The translations under genes and the position numbers were made by a program. The notes beneath the pieces are model-generated. The model ran no database searches. It was not told the origin of the DNA and saw nothing but the letters and a program-made list of their open reading frames with translations. Below are positions 3,382-9,992 of a DNA stretch of 58,962 bases, in pieces. The stretch is from an uncultured Pseudomonadota bacterium (GTDB taxonomy: Bacteria > Pseudomonadota > Alphaproteobacteria > Rs-D84): positions 1 to 58,962 of the forward strand of contig CADBLE010000002.1 of NCBI GenBank assembly GCA_902795435.1, written 5' to 3'. How positions within the stretch are numbered: the first letter of the stretch is position 1; every line of letters starts with the position of its first letter.

Positions 3382-5643
3382 TTATTTCAGAGGTTCAAGA
3401 ATTTTTATTTCTTTCGTATTTGGATTATATACTTTCGGTGTGCCGTCATATCCCATAATTGCATGGTGTGAAGGTATCAAAAATTCAGGTAATGGGGACG
3501 CTTCGCCGAGAGCGATTTTTTCAACCAATCTTTTTTGGACCGGTGTTTTGTTTAGATAATATTGAATATTTGTTGCTTCAATTGGTCTGTGATACCAACC
3601 CTGGTAAATAACCAATTGTTTGTCCGCAGGCAATTTCATAATATCCATTTCAGAATAAATAGGTTCTTCTTTTGGAACTTCTACTTCTTTGCCGTCTTTG
3701 TCTTTTTCTGTTTTCTTGGTAATTTTTTTACCCATCATATCAGAAAATCTGCGTGCAGAATCAGGGTCGTTTTGACGCAAAACAATTTTTGCAGCGGTTG
3801 TAGAAATAATTGTAGCAGCTGCATCTGCGCCATATCTTTCTTGAATCTGGTGAATATCCTGGCCAATGATAAGATATGAAACCTTGCATCCGCGTCCCAG
3901 GTCTGGTCCCTGAATAACTGCATCCAATTTTTGCATTTTTGGCATTTCATCAAGCACGAATAATACAGGGCATGGCCCAACGCGTTCGCCATCAACCAAT
4001 GTTCCCGGGGTGTGTGCCAAAAGATAACTGGACATCAATTCAATGAAGATAGCGGTAATAGGGTTTACGGCCTGGGCATCAACCAGGTTTACAGATAGAT
4101 AGACACTGACTGGTTTTATTTTTCCGTCCCTTGGGTCTTTCAGACCACGCAAATCAGAAAAATGAAAATCAGAATGACTGGTTCTGTTGCGGACGGCGGC
4201 ATTACGGAATATTGCCAAACCTTCCATCATGGTTGATAAAATAGAACCACGTTCTTTATCAGGTGTGTTTGCAAGTTGGGTCAATTCAGATATTGCACGA
4301 TGTGCGTATGAATAACGGCGTGCTTCTTCAACCGCATTCAAGAATAAATCTTTCATTGGGTCGGCCATCATGACCATTTGGTCGCCTTGACGACGGCGTT
4401 CTTCCATTTCTTCGGCCATGGCAACCTGGGAAGAAGTAATCCAATCAAGAATCAAAGAAAGTGATGCTTCTTTGCCACGCCATGAATCTGGAATGTGTTC
4501 CCATGTCCCAACATGAACATAGTTAGATGCGTTTAATTCGCCACGCTGTAATAAAGAATAAGCAGCGTATGCATTTGGATCATTCATCATTGATAAATAA
4601 TAATCGCCCAACAAAGTTGCGTCATCACTGGTGAATGTTCCAGAATTTATACGAGAATAGAAATAATCGTCCGCTTTCGCACGTTCAACCTTTGATACAA
4701 TAAAATTGATAAGACCAGATAATCCCGAACGACCAGTGTTAGACCAGTGTGGGTCTTGGGCTGCGTCTGGAACTAATACTTTACATATAGCATCAATATA
4801 CAAATCGCGTTGTTCTGGATTGAACGGAACATGTTCAGGTGACAGCGGGTTCCATGATGGATAATATATACCGCGTTCCGGATCGTCTTGACCAGACCAA
4901 TTCATAATAAACACATGACTGACCGTTGAACGATAACCAGATGTAGATTGTTTCAATTCTGGTTTTGGGTCGTTGATAATCATAGATACATTGTCACAAT
5001 CAAGAATTGTTGGAACAACGACACCTGTTGTTTTACCAGTTCCTGGAGGCGCCACACACAGGGCAGACAAAGTTTCATCAAACATCAATGCGGTATCTTT
5101 GCCTTTGTATTTAAAATAGCCAAGAACCATCATAAAACCCTTGAATAATCCGTCTTTATTTTTCCAATCTTTACCCATTTTTTTGATATCGTCAGCGGTT
5201 GCCTTGCGTGAAGATTTTTCATCATATTTATCTTTGCCATGTGGATTGAATTCAGACTTAAATGTATCATCTGCCAAGAAATAATATACCATTATAGGAA
5301 TCAGTGGTGCCAAACATGCAAAATCTGGGTGATATAATATTCTGGATAACCAATATGGGACCTCTGCAATAGCGGAAAGACCGAATGAATGAAGCAAGTT
5401 AGAAAAGTAGATAGACAACCAATGTTGTGTTGCCATATTCCAACCGTATCTCCAAATATGTTCTGCACCGAAAGAGACCGCAAAAGCCGCGGCGCATACC
5501 AACCAGACACCAATATTCCAACGGATTTCCCAGAATTTTCGGGCCATTGGGGTTTGTTCGTGTTCTTTGTATGCACCAGATTCAAAGATTTTTAGACCTT
5601 TGCCGGAACCACTGTTAGAGAAAATGTTGAACTTTCCTGCCAT
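3382..5643 (-). CDS. virD4: VirD4/TraG-type type IV secretion coupling ATPase
   Basis: The product has 753 residues from the preferred ATG at 5643. A longer frame to 5742 adds 33 hydrophobic residues that overlap the divergent rsmE, so I reject it. N-terminal membrane segments (about 43-60 and 105-123) precede the ATPase. Walker A is PPGTGKT (199-205), followed by PTILDCDNVSMIINDPKPEL; Walker B is VLFVLDEMPK (about 557-566). The motif IGQDIHQIQERYG is also typical of TraG/VirD4 proteins. The family couples substrates to a type IV secretion or conjugation channel at the inner membrane. No other T4SS gene is visible nearby. A TGATATAAT element ends 7 nt before the start codon and no Shine-Dalgarno is seen, so the mRNA may be leaderless. 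Confidence 0.88.
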   Translation of the reverse strand: MAGKFNIFSNSGSGKGLKIFESGAYKEHEQTPMARKFWEIRWNIGVWLVCAAAFAVSFGAEHIWRYGWNMATQHWLSIYFSNLLHSFGLSAIAEVPYWLSRILYHPDFACLAPLIPIMVYYFLADDTFKSEFNPHGKDKYDEKSSRKATADDIKKMGKDWKNKDGLFKGFMMVLGYFKYKGKDTALMFDETLSALCVAPPGTGKTTGVVVPTILDCDNVSMIINDPKPELKQSTSGYRSTVSHVFIMNWSGQDDPERGIYYPSWNPLSPEHVPFNPEQRDLYIDAICKVLVPDAAQDPHWSNTGRSGLSGLINFIVSKVERAKADDYFYSRINSGTFTSDDATLLGDYYLSMMNDPNAYAAYSLLQRGELNASNYVHVGTWEHIPDSWRGKEASLSLILDWITSSQVAMAEEMEERRRQGDQMVMMADPMKDLFLNAVEEARRYSYAHRAISELTQLANTPDKERGSILSTMMEGLAIFRNAAVRNRTSHSDFHFSDLRGLKDPRDGKIKPVSVYLSVNLVDAQAVNPITAIFIELMSSYLLAHTPGTLVDGERVGPCPVLFVLDEMPKMQKLDAVIQGPDLGRGCKVSYLIIGQDIHQIQERYGADAAATIISTTAAKIVLRQNDPDSARRFSDMMGKKITKKTEKDKDGKEVEVPKEEPIYSEMDIMKLPADKQLVIYQGWYHRPIEATNIQYYLNKTPVQKRLVEKIALGEASPLPEFLIPSHHAIMGYDGTPKVYNPNTKEIKILEPLK

Positions 5644-5650
5644 GATTGGT

Positions 5651-5659
5651 ATTATATCA
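5651..5659 (-). promoter_or_regulatory. extended -10 element of the virD4 unit
   Basis: On the minus strand the sequence reads TGATATAAT, a perfect -10 hexamer with an upstream TG, then seven bases (ACCAATC), then the ATG of the VirD4-type gene. Transcription would start at or next to the A of the ATG. Confidence 0.6.
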
Positions 5660-5696
5660 TAAAAGAAACCCTTTTTACACATTAAAGATAAAAAAA

Positions 5697-6353
5697 ATGC
5701 AAAATATACCAAGAATATTTTTTGATGCCGATTTAGAACCAAATAAAAAATTGCCTGTGGATAAAGACATTGTTCATTATATGCGTCGTGTTATGCGCAG
5801 GGGTGATTGTTTGGTGTTTAATAACGGTGATGAATTTAATGCGTCATTATCTGATGATGATAAATCTATTGTTATTGGAAATAAAACAGAACACGTTGAC
5901 CCAAGTAATAATTTAACATTATTTTTTGCACCTATTAAAAAGATAGAAGATTTGTTGAATATGGCAACACAAATGGGGGTTGCTGTTTTACAGCCTGTTA
6001 TTACAAAACGCACAGTTGCGAATCATATAAATTGGGAACGTCAATTAAAGATAATAAAAGAAGCGTCTGAACAATCTGGACGAAATTCTGTTCCAAAATT
6101 ATTAGCGCCAATAAAATTTGATGATATTAAATTTGACAATACTTTTGTCGTGGCAGACGAAAGGGCGGGTCATGGTATGGATATAGAAAATAATACAGAC
6201 GGTGTTGAAAAAATCTTGATTGGTCCAGAAGGTGGCTTTGCCCCAGAAGAATTTGAAAAAATGAACAATGTAAAATCTATGTCTTTGGGAAAAACAATTT
6301 TAAGGGCAGAGGTTGCGGGTGTTGTTGCGATTGCAAAGGTTTTAGATAAATGA
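5697..6353 (+). CDS. rsmE: 16S rRNA (uracil-1498-N3)-methyltransferase RsmE
   Basis: The 218-residue protein is an SPOUT-class methyltransferase that uses SAM to methylate U1498 of 16S rRNA. I chose the ATG at 5697 because MQNIPRIFFD gives the usual family N terminus; an in-frame ATG at 5646 would add 17 residues overlapping the opposite-strand promoter. Visible family motifs are YMRRVMRRGDCLVFNNG (N-terminal PUA-like part), KKIEDLLNMATQMGV, ASEQSGR, LIGPEGGFAPEE and LGKTILRAEVAGVVAI (the knotted SAM-binding site). It overlaps the next gene by 4 nt (ATGA), indicating translational coupling with a second rRNA-modifying enzyme. Confidence 0.92.
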   Translation: MQNIPRIFFDADLEPNKKLPVDKDIVHYMRRVMRRGDCLVFNNGDEFNASLSDDDKSIVIGNKTEHVDPSNNLTLFFAPIKKIEDLLNMATQMGVAVLQPVITKRTVANHINWERQLKIIKEASEQSGRNSVPKLLAPIKFDDIKFDNTFVVADERAGHGMDIENNTDGVEKILIGPEGGFAPEEFEKMNNVKSMSLGKTILRAEVAGVVAIAKVLDK

Positions 6354-8063: not shown

Positions 8064-8089
8064 TCCGCCAGATATGGCGGATTTTTTTT
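8064..8089 (+). terminator. rho-independent terminator of the rsmE-TPR unit
   Basis: The stem TCCGCCA/TGGCGGA with loop GATA is followed by eight T residues. The -35 element of the thrS leader promoter begins in the last bases of this T tract. Confidence 0.9.
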
Positions 8090-8116
8090 GACTTTTATAA
8101 AATATAGTTATAATAT
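8088..8116 (+). promoter_or_regulatory. promoter P1 of the thrS leader
   Basis: The sequence shows TTGACT (8088-8093), a 17-nt spacer and TAATAT (8111-8116). An overlapping TATAAT at 8109-8114 is an alternative -10 with a 15-nt spacer. The ATG of the Thr-rich leader peptide begins 7 nt after the TAATAT hexamer, so the transcript may start at that ATG. Confidence 0.6.
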
Positions 8117-8123
8117 AATAAAC

Positions 8124-8183
8124 ATGATTTATAGATTATTTATTTTGACTACTACAACTACAACAACCCCTTTGGGGGTGTAG
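8124..8183 (+). CDS. threonine-rich leader peptide of thrS (attenuator ORF)
   Basis: This 19-residue reading frame encodes MIYRLFILTTTTTTTPLGV and a TAG stop, with seven consecutive threonine codons (ACT ACT ACA ACT ACA ACA ACC). It lies 81 nt upstream of the threonyl-tRNA synthetase start. A run of codons for the amino acid handled by the downstream gene is the hallmark of ribosome-mediated attenuation: scarce charged tRNA-Thr would stall the ribosome on the run and change the folding of the leader RNA. No ribosome binding site is visible and the -10 hexamer ends 7 nt before the ATG, so it may be translated from a leaderless mRNA, as described for trpL of Sinorhizobium meliloti. The mechanism here is inferred. 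Confidence 0.75.
   Translation: MIYRLFILTTTTTTTPLGV
8158..8183 (+). promoter_or_regulatory. candidate attenuator hairpin over the Thr codons
   Basis: CTACA (8158-8162) can pair with TGTAG (8179-8183), and CCCC (8167-8170) with GGGG (8174-8177) around a TTT loop. The stem uses the last Thr codons on one arm and the leader stop codon on the other, so a ribosome stalled on Thr codons would prevent it. It is not followed by a clean T tract, so control could act on translation or through a different terminator. Confidence 0.45.
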
Positions 8184-8190
8184 ATTCTAT

Positions 8191-8219
8191 TTGTGCTGAT
8201 ATCTGGCACGTATTATAAT
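8191..8219 (+). promoter_or_regulatory. possible second thrS promoter P2
   Basis: TTGTGC (8191-8196), a 17-nt spacer and a perfect TATAAT (8214-8219) lie between the leader peptide and thrS. If active it would bypass the attenuator. The same stretch also forms a hairpin (GTGC/GCAC, 8193-8209), so it may instead be part of the leader RNA fold. Confidence 0.45.
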
Positions 8220-8264
8220 AAGTAAGCAATTCATAAAAATAATAAAAAAACAAGAAGGTAAAAT

Positions 8265-9992
8265 ATGTCTTATCCAATAGAAACAATCCGTCATTCATTG
8301 GCTCATGTTATGGCGGCAGCGGTACAAAAATTATATCCAGATGTAAAATTTGCTGGTGGTCCTGCAATTGAAAATGGTTTTTACTATGATTTTGATACAG
8401 AACACAGATTCAGCGAAGAAGATTTTGCATCTATTGAAAAAGAAATGAAGGCTTTGATTAAATCAGATGGTCGTTTTGACAGACGTGAAATCTCGCTGGA
8501 AGAAGCCAAAGAATTATTCAAAAACCAACCATACAAAATGGAATGGTTAAATGAATATGATGCCAAAGGCGAAGTTTTATCAATTTATTCTTTCCGTGAT
8601 TTTACAGATTTGTGTCGTGGTCCTCATGTTGAATCATCAAAAGATTTACCAAAAGACGGCTTTAAAATCAGAAATGTAGCAGGTGCATATTGGAAGGGTG
8701 ATTCCAAAAATAAAATGTTACAACGTATTTATGTTGATGCATTTGAAGATGCTGATAAATTAAACGCTTTCTTGAAAATGCAAGAAGAAGCGGCGGCACG
8801 TGATAACCGCAAATTGGGTAAAGATATGGATTTATTCCATTTTGAACCTGAATTTGCACCGGGTGCTGTGTTCTGGCATGACAAGGGGTATCGTATATAT
8901 CGTAAATTGATTGAATATATGCGTTCTCGTCAAGATCGTGCAGGTTATTATGAAATTTCAACACCATCTGTAATGGACAGAAGTTTATGGGAAACATCTG
9001 GACATTGGGAAAAATATGGCGCACATAATTATTCTGGTAAAACACAAGATGACCGTGTGTTCTGTATTAAACCTATGAATTGCCCGGGCAGTGTTTTGAC
9101 ATTTAAACAGGGAATTCGTTCATACCGTGATTTACCATTACGTTTGGCTGAATTTGGTAAAGTAAATAGATACGAAGCATCTGGTTCTTTGATGGGGTTG
9201 TTGCGTGTTCGTGAATTTACCCAAGATGATGCTCATATTTATTGCACACCAGAACAAATGGAATCAGAATGCATAGATGCATTGAAATTCATTTTGGATA
9301 TTTATAAAAAATTCGGTTTTGATGAAGTTAAAATCTATCTGTCAACAAGACCTGAAAAACGTATTGGTTCAGATGAAATTTGGGATTTGTGTGAAAACGC
9401 ATTGGCTCATTCTTTGCAGGAACATGGTTATGCGTATGAAATCAATCCTGGCGAAGGTGCTTTCTATGGTCCAAAATTAGAATTCGTTTTGCGTGATGCA
9501 TTGGGACGTGAATGGCAATGTGGAACAATCCAAGTTGATATGAATTTGCCAGAACGTTTTGATGTTTCTTACATTGGTGAAGATGGTGAAAAACATCGTC
9601 CAATTATGTTGCACCGTGCAATGTTGGGTTCTATTGAAAGATTCATTGGTGTATTACTTGAATCAACAGGTGGTGCATTGCCATTATGGTTATCACCAGA
9701 ACCAGTAGTAGTTGTTCCAGTATCTGAAAAATACAAAGATTATGCAGATGAAGTTGTAAAATCTTTGCAACAAAACGGAATCAACGCACGTTCAGATTTA
9801 AGAGACGAAAAAGTGAACTATAAGGTTCGTGAATTGTCTTTGGCAAAAACACCAATTATCGCTGTGGTTGGCGAAAAAGAAGTAGAAGCCAAATCTGTAA
9901 CATTACGTTATCTGGGCAAAGAAGGACAAGAAAACAAATCTTTGTCTGAATTTATTGCATACATGGTTGATGCAATTAAAATGCCTTTGTAA
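8265..9992 (+). CDS. thrS: threonyl-tRNA synthetase lacking the TGS domain
   Basis: The 575-residue enzyme charges tRNA-Thr with threonine. The ribosome site AAGAAGG precedes the ATG. The editing domain is present at the very N terminus (HSLAH at 10-14; LCRGPHV further on). It is followed by the class II catalytic core with MNCPGS (zinc-binding Cys), REFTQDDAHIYC and MLHRAMLGSIERFIGVL (motif 3), and then the anticodon-binding domain (PVVVVPVSEKYKDYADEVVKSL onward). The E. coli enzyme has about 640 residues and starts with a TGS domain of about 60, which is absent here. In the motif-2 region the usual CPGH reads CPGS. An upstream Thr-codon leader suggests attenuation control. Confidence 0.95.
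   Translation: MSYPIETIRHSLAHVMAAAVQKLYPDVKFAGGPAIENGFYYDFDTEHRFSEEDFASIEKEMKALIKSDGRFDRREISLEEAKELFKNQPYKMEWLNEYDAKGEVLSIYSFRDFTDLCRGPHVESSKDLPKDGFKIRNVAGAYWKGDSKNKMLQRIYVDAFEDADKLNAFLKMQEEAAARDNRKLGKDMDLFHFEPEFAPGAVFWHDKGYRIYRKLIEYMRSRQDRAGYYEISTPSVMDRSLWETSGHWEKYGAHNYSGKTQDDRVFCIKPMNCPGSVLTFKQGIRSYRDLPLRLAEFGKVNRYEASGSLMGLLRVREFTQDDAHIYCTPEQMESECIDALKFILDIYKKFGFDEVKIYLSTRPEKRIGSDEIWDLCENALAHSLQEHGYAYEINPGEGAFYGPKLEFVLRDALGREWQCGTIQVDMNLPERFDVSYIGEDGEKHRPIMLHRAMLGSIERFIGVLLESTGGALPLWLSPEPVVVVPVSEKYKDYADEVVKSLQQNGINARSDLRDEKVNYKVRELSLAKTPIIAVVGEKEVEAKSVTLRYLGKEGQENKSLSEFIAYMVDAIKMPL

Follow-up and report, generated by a model that had tools for sequence, protein, structure and literature searches.

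The threonyl-tRNA synthetase gene thrS of the order Rs-D84 is preceded by a short leader ORF whose run of threonine codons ends inside the 5′ arm of a conserved 5-bp hairpin. Judged from comparative sequence analysis, it is highly probable that this leader senses tRNA-Thr charging via a stalled ribosome. The whole statement, that it is a ribosome-mediated attenuator that tunes thrS to tRNA-Thr charging with termination as its output, is held with slightly better than even confidence. Comparison with relatives bears out the codon run, selection at the amino acid level, the hairpin, both promoters, the order of the parts, and the reuse of the module with serine codons at serS. From these parts we infer which way the response runs, that termination is the output, and any part played by a second hairpin.

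The window, i.e., the whole stretch of DNA analyzed (58,962 nucleotides), is contig C2 of a 0.95 Mb genome (G000). The leader ORF (8124–8183, forward strand) encodes MIYRLFILTTTTTTTPLGV; its ATG is at 8124 and its stop codon TAG at 8181–8183. The sequence and its relatives indicate that it is probably leaderless or has a 5′ UTR of about 4 nt at most. Seven consecutive Thr codons (ACT ACT ACA ACT ACA ACA ACC, 8148–8168, forward strand) are the regulatory codons. The thrS gene (8265–9992, forward strand) starts with ATG at 8265, leaving 81 nt between the two frames, and has a Shine–Dalgarno sequence, AGAAGG, at 8253–8258 on the same strand. Its product matched the equivalog model TIGR00418 (E = 2.4e-204) and has no N-terminal TGS domain. 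A first-pass annotation had described this frame, its seven Thr codons in a row and the 81-nt distance to thrS, and direct reading of the sequence agrees. Across all six frames of the 59 kb window, no other run reached five Thr; within the window's genes, Thr runs were no longer than three, and no run of seven or more was found in 20 Markov-1 sequences of the window's length. Covariance models of Rfam leader families, including ThrLeader, gave no match above the gathering score; the window gave two tRNAs only. Elsewhere in the window, the minus strand of this reduced gut genome encodes a type IV secretion coupling protein (T4SS-DNA_transf/TraG, 3382–5742).

The DNA upstream of thrS was collected from public contigs and additional genomes of the genus and reduced to 92 distinct leader-bearing regions. 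They came mainly from one genus (Candidatus Enterousia-like, order Rs-D84), and the named relatives of the window's genome include Candidatus Enterousia scatequi and Ca. E. avistercoris. On the basis of these matches and PMC12306168, the genome is taken to be that of an Enterousia-like alphaproteobacterium of the order Rs-D84. One further thrS upstream region (L049) had no leader and is outside the 92. All 92 regions contained at least three Thr codons (3–7) and the hairpin, hereafter hairpin 1. The Thr run that the first-pass annotation had predicted before thrS in relatives was thus found, and the absence that would have spoken against it was not seen. The parts came in the order P1 promoter, leader with 3–7 Thr codons, hairpin 1 spanning the final Thr codon, stop codon, U-rich tract, and P2 promoter with hairpin 2. 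All 92 leaders ended with a Thr-rich stretch followed by Pro-x-Gly-Val and the stop codon, or close variants such as a terminal -VR.

A covariance model of the element matched 160 of 201 genomes and 12 of the 23 genera of the order Rs-D84, including families f2 and f6. Under strict filters, it had no match outside the genus among 385 genomes of the class (~380 other alphaproteobacteria). The element was lost in genus g10, and one genome (G181, locus L220) kept P2 and hairpin 2 while the leader was gone. In the window's own genome, no further copy besides that at thrS was found with the pattern used.

Thr positions were numbered backward from the hairpin's Thr codon, which was set as position 0. 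Thr was present at positions 0 and −1 in 92/92 regions, at −2 in 88, at −3 in 79, at −4 in 64, and at −5 in 70. For codons −2 to −5, the third base was free and the first two bases were far more conserved; at codons −2 and −3, the entropy of bases 1 and 2 was 0.24–0.65 (nearly fixed), whereas that of base 3 was about 1.5. This pattern indicates selection for threonine itself. The stem codons behaved differently: the synonymous third bases were fixed, with ACC in 92/92 and GGG in 92/92. As ACC accounts for 15% of the Thr codons and GGG for 9% of the Gly codons in the window's genes, the invariance of these uncommon codons indicates selection for hairpin 1. Apart from the Thr run and the stem codons, the leader peptide was poorly conserved.

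In the window, hairpin 1 (8166–8179, forward strand) consists of ACCCC (8166–8170), the loop TTTG, and GGGGT (8175–8179). Its plan in relatives is ACCCC-N4-GGGGT, with a fixed stem and a variable loop. The closing pair is A–U in thrS leaders and U–A in serS leaders; its covariation score was 0.145, compared with 0.051 in shuffles (0/500), a value that kinship inflates and that perhaps reflects one switch. The minimum free energy fold of the window also contains a possible outer arm (8158–8183, forward strand; CTAC 8158–8161 with GTAG 8180–8183). As a conserved part, this outer stem was rejected: it showed no covariation, and its own pairing energy was −1.20 kcal/mol versus −1.38 kcal/mol with permuted partners. 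Of the arm pairing proposed in the first-pass annotation, the CCCC/GGGG part is therefore the conserved core of hairpin 1, whereas the CTACA/TGTAG part is not conserved.

The effect of a ribosome on hairpin 1 was computed by folding with masked positions, assuming a ribosome footprint of 31 nt. With the A site at codon −4 or earlier, the probability of hairpin 1 was 0.84–0.95; from codon −3 on, it was 0.00. Hence a ribosome would block the pairing, as had been proposed, with its A site on the last four Thr codons but not on the first ones. The Thr codons nearest hairpin 1 are the most conserved. Since these are the codons at which a stall blocks hairpin 1, we take hairpin 1 to be what the stalled ribosome prevents. 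Two broad features of leader-peptide control are thus present: a short upstream ORF with a cognate codon run (Thr in 92/92; Ser at serS), and, in the computed masking, a hairpin whose formation depends on the position of the ribosome on the Thr codons. Two points of the same calculation complicate the attenuator reading. If the stall falls on the first Thr codons, hairpin 1 can still form, which counts against it. Hairpin 1 is likewise covered by a ribosome that sits at the leader stop codon; under replete conditions, the ribosome would therefore have to leave quickly or lag behind.

We then considered how the hairpin could be coupled to thrS. The stop codon is followed by a conserved U-rich tract, ATTCTATTT (8184–8192, forward strand), which begins 4 nt past the 5-bp stem. 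The tail score right at the stem was 0.91 (background 1.00), and that from 4 nt after the stem was 2.38, compared with 2.39–3.70 for ileS terminators. In 17 of the 92 relatives (those with PxGVR leaders), the tract is a further 3 nt from the stem; these leaders may reflect one single insertion. Such distances are poor for an intrinsic terminator, and by tail score no intrinsic terminator with a U-tract at the stem was found at thrS. The absence of an obvious T-tract terminator in the first-pass annotation holds in that no canonical one lies directly after hairpin 1; the U-rich tract may, from its sequence, be a weak terminator. When the 5′ arm was masked, GGGG had no consistent partner in the relatives, i.e., no conserved antiterminator was found, which also counts against the attenuator reading.

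These results bear on two other forms of transcriptional control. In a classical class I attenuator, as in the thrABC and trp leaders, a mutually exclusive antiterminator and a U-tract terminator would make the decision. The module shares with this design regulatory codons and a short leader whose end lies in a hairpin, and the same genome has a true classical example at ileS; however, thrS has no conserved alternative pairing, no U-tract directly at the stem, and in nearly all genomes no U's after hairpin 2. We regard this design as quite unlikely at thrS. Alternatively, the leader ribosome might control Rho-dependent or coupling-dependent termination between the leader and thrS, as in tnaC. 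The lack of a canonical terminator agrees with this, and rho was present in G000 and in 92 of 96 genomes of the genus. On the other hand, no C-rich, rut-like stretch was seen from the stop codon to P2, and no rho was found in G020 (94% complete) or G074 (100%), which kept the module, although an assembly gap is possible. This explanation is unlikely, if a shade less so than a class I attenuator.

Two promoters frame the leader region. P1 (8088–8119, forward strand) has the −35 box TTGACT (8088–8093) and overlapping −10 candidates, TATAAT (8109–8114), TAATAT (8111–8116) and TATAAT (8114–8119). In the promoter scan alone, a P1-like match, TTGACT(8088)-17-TAATAT(8116), was no more frequent than expected by chance in DNA this rich in AT. 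P1 is credible only because it is conserved in relatives: most of the 92 regions had TTGAC or TTGAT, 17 nt, and TANNAT, with the −10 box ending 6–10 nt before the leader ATG. At this distance, the transcript should start at the ATG or a few bases away, and the leaderless geometry suggested in the first-pass annotation gains support from the conserved spacing. P2 (8191–8219, forward strand) has the −35 box TTGTGC (8191–8196), a 17-nt spacer, and the −10 box TATAAT (8214–8219). A TTGCGN-16 to 18 nt-TATAAT/AATAAT pattern was found in 91 of the 92 regions but in 3.5% of shuffled sequence, and its spacer was exactly 17 nt in 72 of the 91. The second promoter-like element noticed earlier within the leader region is therefore a conserved promoter, and the sequence suggests that thrS probably has two transcription start sites. 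P2 would bypass control from P1, which counts against the attenuator reading.

A leaderless transcript with its own promoter, which could end before P2, might also act in trans through its RNA or its peptide, like Sinorhizobium rnTrpL/peTrpL, an alphaproteobacterial precedent (PMC7298713). The peptide beyond the Thr run and the stem codons is poorly conserved, which counts against this; action in trans seems very unlikely. The output could instead be post-transcriptional, the stalled ribosome or the hairpins altering the stability or translation of the thrS mRNA and not its transcription. This would fit the presence of two conserved hairpins and the lack of a clear terminator. Sequestration of the thrS Shine–Dalgarno sequence was tried and rejected: its predicted accessibility was independent of the state of the leader ribosome (0.51 free, 0.54 stalled, and 0.58 with the ribosome at the stop codon). 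In addition, P2 transcripts do not carry the leader. A post-transcriptional output is about as improbable as the class I design.

Hairpin 2 (8193–8209, forward strand) pairs GTGC (8193–8196) with GCAC (8206–8209) and overlaps the −35 box and spacer of P2. RNAalifold on a MAFFT alignment missed it because its loop length varies, so the pairing was assessed directly by permutation. The 4-bp stem was kept in 85 of 91 regions (permutation mean 57.6, maximum 67); when only Watson–Crick pairs were allowed, it was kept in 71, compared with a permutation mean of 26.3 and a maximum of 44. Its arms fall into the compensatory classes GCGG/CCGC, GCGA/TCGC, GCAC/GTGC and GCGT/ACGC, and in a distant family (L228) it becomes TCTTTTT/AAAAAGA. 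Such a dyad was present in 4 of 13 promoter-like sites of the window, P2 included. Hairpin 2 lay 12.4 nt (sd 1.0) past the stop codon, and this interval stayed at 11–12 nt in leaders ending in VR, in which hairpin 1 is set back by a further 3 nt. This fixed distance suggests that hairpin 2 touches the leading edge of the ribosome at the leader stop codon.

The synthetase itself provided further evidence. E. coli ThrRS binds its own leader RNA and represses its own synthesis, and such autorepression would concern the same gene, which here also has hairpins upstream. The window's ThrRS lacks the TGS domain, which is present in a leaderless alphaproteobacterial relative (L052). Mosaic ThrRSs were found in L102 (3001–4737; G093) and L231 (G196), and also in G073 and G044, and the Thr leader was kept. 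In L102 and L231, the first ~160 residues match the lineage's own enzyme (65–95% identity per 40 residues), and after residue ~170 the identity is 15–60% per 40-residue window; the catalytic and anticodon-binding core comes from a divergent ThrRS. That the leader was kept although the core had been replaced agrees with control by tRNA charging, as opposed to binding of the enzyme, and together with the missing TGS domain it makes autorepression of the E. coli type unlikely. Moreover, what is conserved is a run of codons whose third bases are free, and hairpin 1 also stands before serS with Ser codons. On this indirect evidence, we consider autorepression extremely unlikely. Extra ThrRS-like ORFs of ~435 aa without an editing domain were observed in G008:C37, G025:C34 and G083:C26. 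They match residues ~172–572 only, with 43% identity, and are a possible source of the mosaic cores.

The same module was found with Ser runs before serS in other genera of the family (L195, L199, L204, L205, L206, L207, L208, L210, and L271). L199 and L204 were read at the leader only, short of the serS start; the serS identity for L206 was assigned with TIGR00414 (4.9e-123). The leader peptides include MKFKVIVFLSSSSPVGE and MNHLSSCSSSSPLGE. A weaker, degenerate Ser copy precedes serS in G079, of the window's genus, and serS of the window's own genome has no leader. These second matches, with Ser codons before serS, indicate that the module is reused with the codons of the gene that it precedes. 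In a few genomes inspected, no leaders were seen at valS, leuS, proS, glyS, hisS or metG.

The window's own genome has an ileS leader of another kind (G000:C4, L294; ileS identified with TIGR00392). It lies on the reverse strand ~100 nt before ileS and encodes the leaderless peptide MRKNTIIIIK. It has a 10-bp antiterminator, GCGCUUUGGC:GCUGGGGCGC, and a terminator, GGGCG..CGCCC-AUUUUU, and four relatives (L293, L295, L296, and L297) share this attenuator plan. Like thrS, ileS thus has a leaderless frame with cognate codons (four Ile) before a synthetase gene, but thrS has neither the antiterminator nor the U-tract terminator. The classical Ile attenuator indicates that the lineage uses leader peptides for synthetases and that the thrS/serS element is of a different design. 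The first-pass annotation included neither the conserved hairpin 2, nor the serS copies, nor the ileS attenuator.

Taken as a ribosome-mediated attenuator, the module would work as follows. P1 would give a leaderless transcript whose first codons encode a short peptide ending in the Thr run. When charged tRNA-Thr is plentiful, the ribosome would clear the run or lag, and hairpin 1 would form; RNA polymerase would then pause at the U-rich tract, shortly before P2, and may be released there. When tRNA-Thr charging is low, the last Thr codons, which overlap or adjoin the 5′ arm, would slow the ribosome, which would keep hairpin 1 open, and polymerase on P1 transcripts would read into thrS. P2 would maintain a basal thrS supply independent of charging. 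More tentatively, and with less than even confidence, the module may be an order-wide synthetase control element in which regulatory codons form part of the 5′ arm of a minimal 5-bp hairpin without any terminator/antiterminator switch, acting for example by polymerase pausing and interplay with P2, whose spacer encodes hairpin 2 ~12 nt past the stop codon.

Several known systems resemble the module. Among synthetase genes, pheST, trpS and leuS are known to have attenuators (PMC1262725). Classical attenuators (ThrLeader RF00506, trp/his/phe, and pheST) likewise have regulatory codons, a short ORF and a hairpin overlapping the ORF end; unlike them, the thrS module has no conserved antiterminator/terminator pair and no Rfam match, and it contains an internal promoter. 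The closest description concerns Streptomyces lividans thrL, a leaderless MKRVRPFLETTPGFVPAR with two Thr codons upstream of thrS, for which the authors called termination unclear (PMC8079986). Both are short leaderless Thr peptides before thrS, and thrL has one hairpin and no U-tract. However, thrL was described in one genome of an actinobacterium and has two Thr codons only, whereas the Rs-D84 leaders have 3–7 and are order-wide; their last Thr codon lies within a fixed hairpin, the internal promoter is conserved, and copies occur at serS. Because of this earlier report, calling the attenuator new, as the first-pass annotation did, was too strong. The LEU element upstream of actinobacterial leuA also has a codon run overlapping an RNA structure and no terminator, but its pseudoknot base pairs with the leuA Shine–Dalgarno sequence (PMC1262725), which was not seen at thrS. 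The E. coli thrS operator controls the same gene through tRNA-like hairpins bound by the enzyme (PMC11088916), whereas the proposed sensor in Rs-D84 is a codon run. In the literature searched, we found neither a serS leader nor any Rs-D84 leader described; the proteobacterial survey of Vitreschak et al. 2004 could hold related cases. Overall, the thrS module looks like a variant of already known leader-peptide control with an unusual step from stall to output.

The module consists of one 5-bp hairpin and codons, and it asks how little ribosome-mediated control needs. The same hairpin serves with interchangeable codons, Thr at thrS and Ser at serS, and with an alignment that spans the order, the output step can be put to a direct test. 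Members of Rs-D84 are reported to lack amino acid biosynthesis pathways and standard amino acid transporters (PMC12306168), which makes control of a synthetase by charging plausible. This host-associated order probably controls synthetase genes by tRNA charging via leader peptides.
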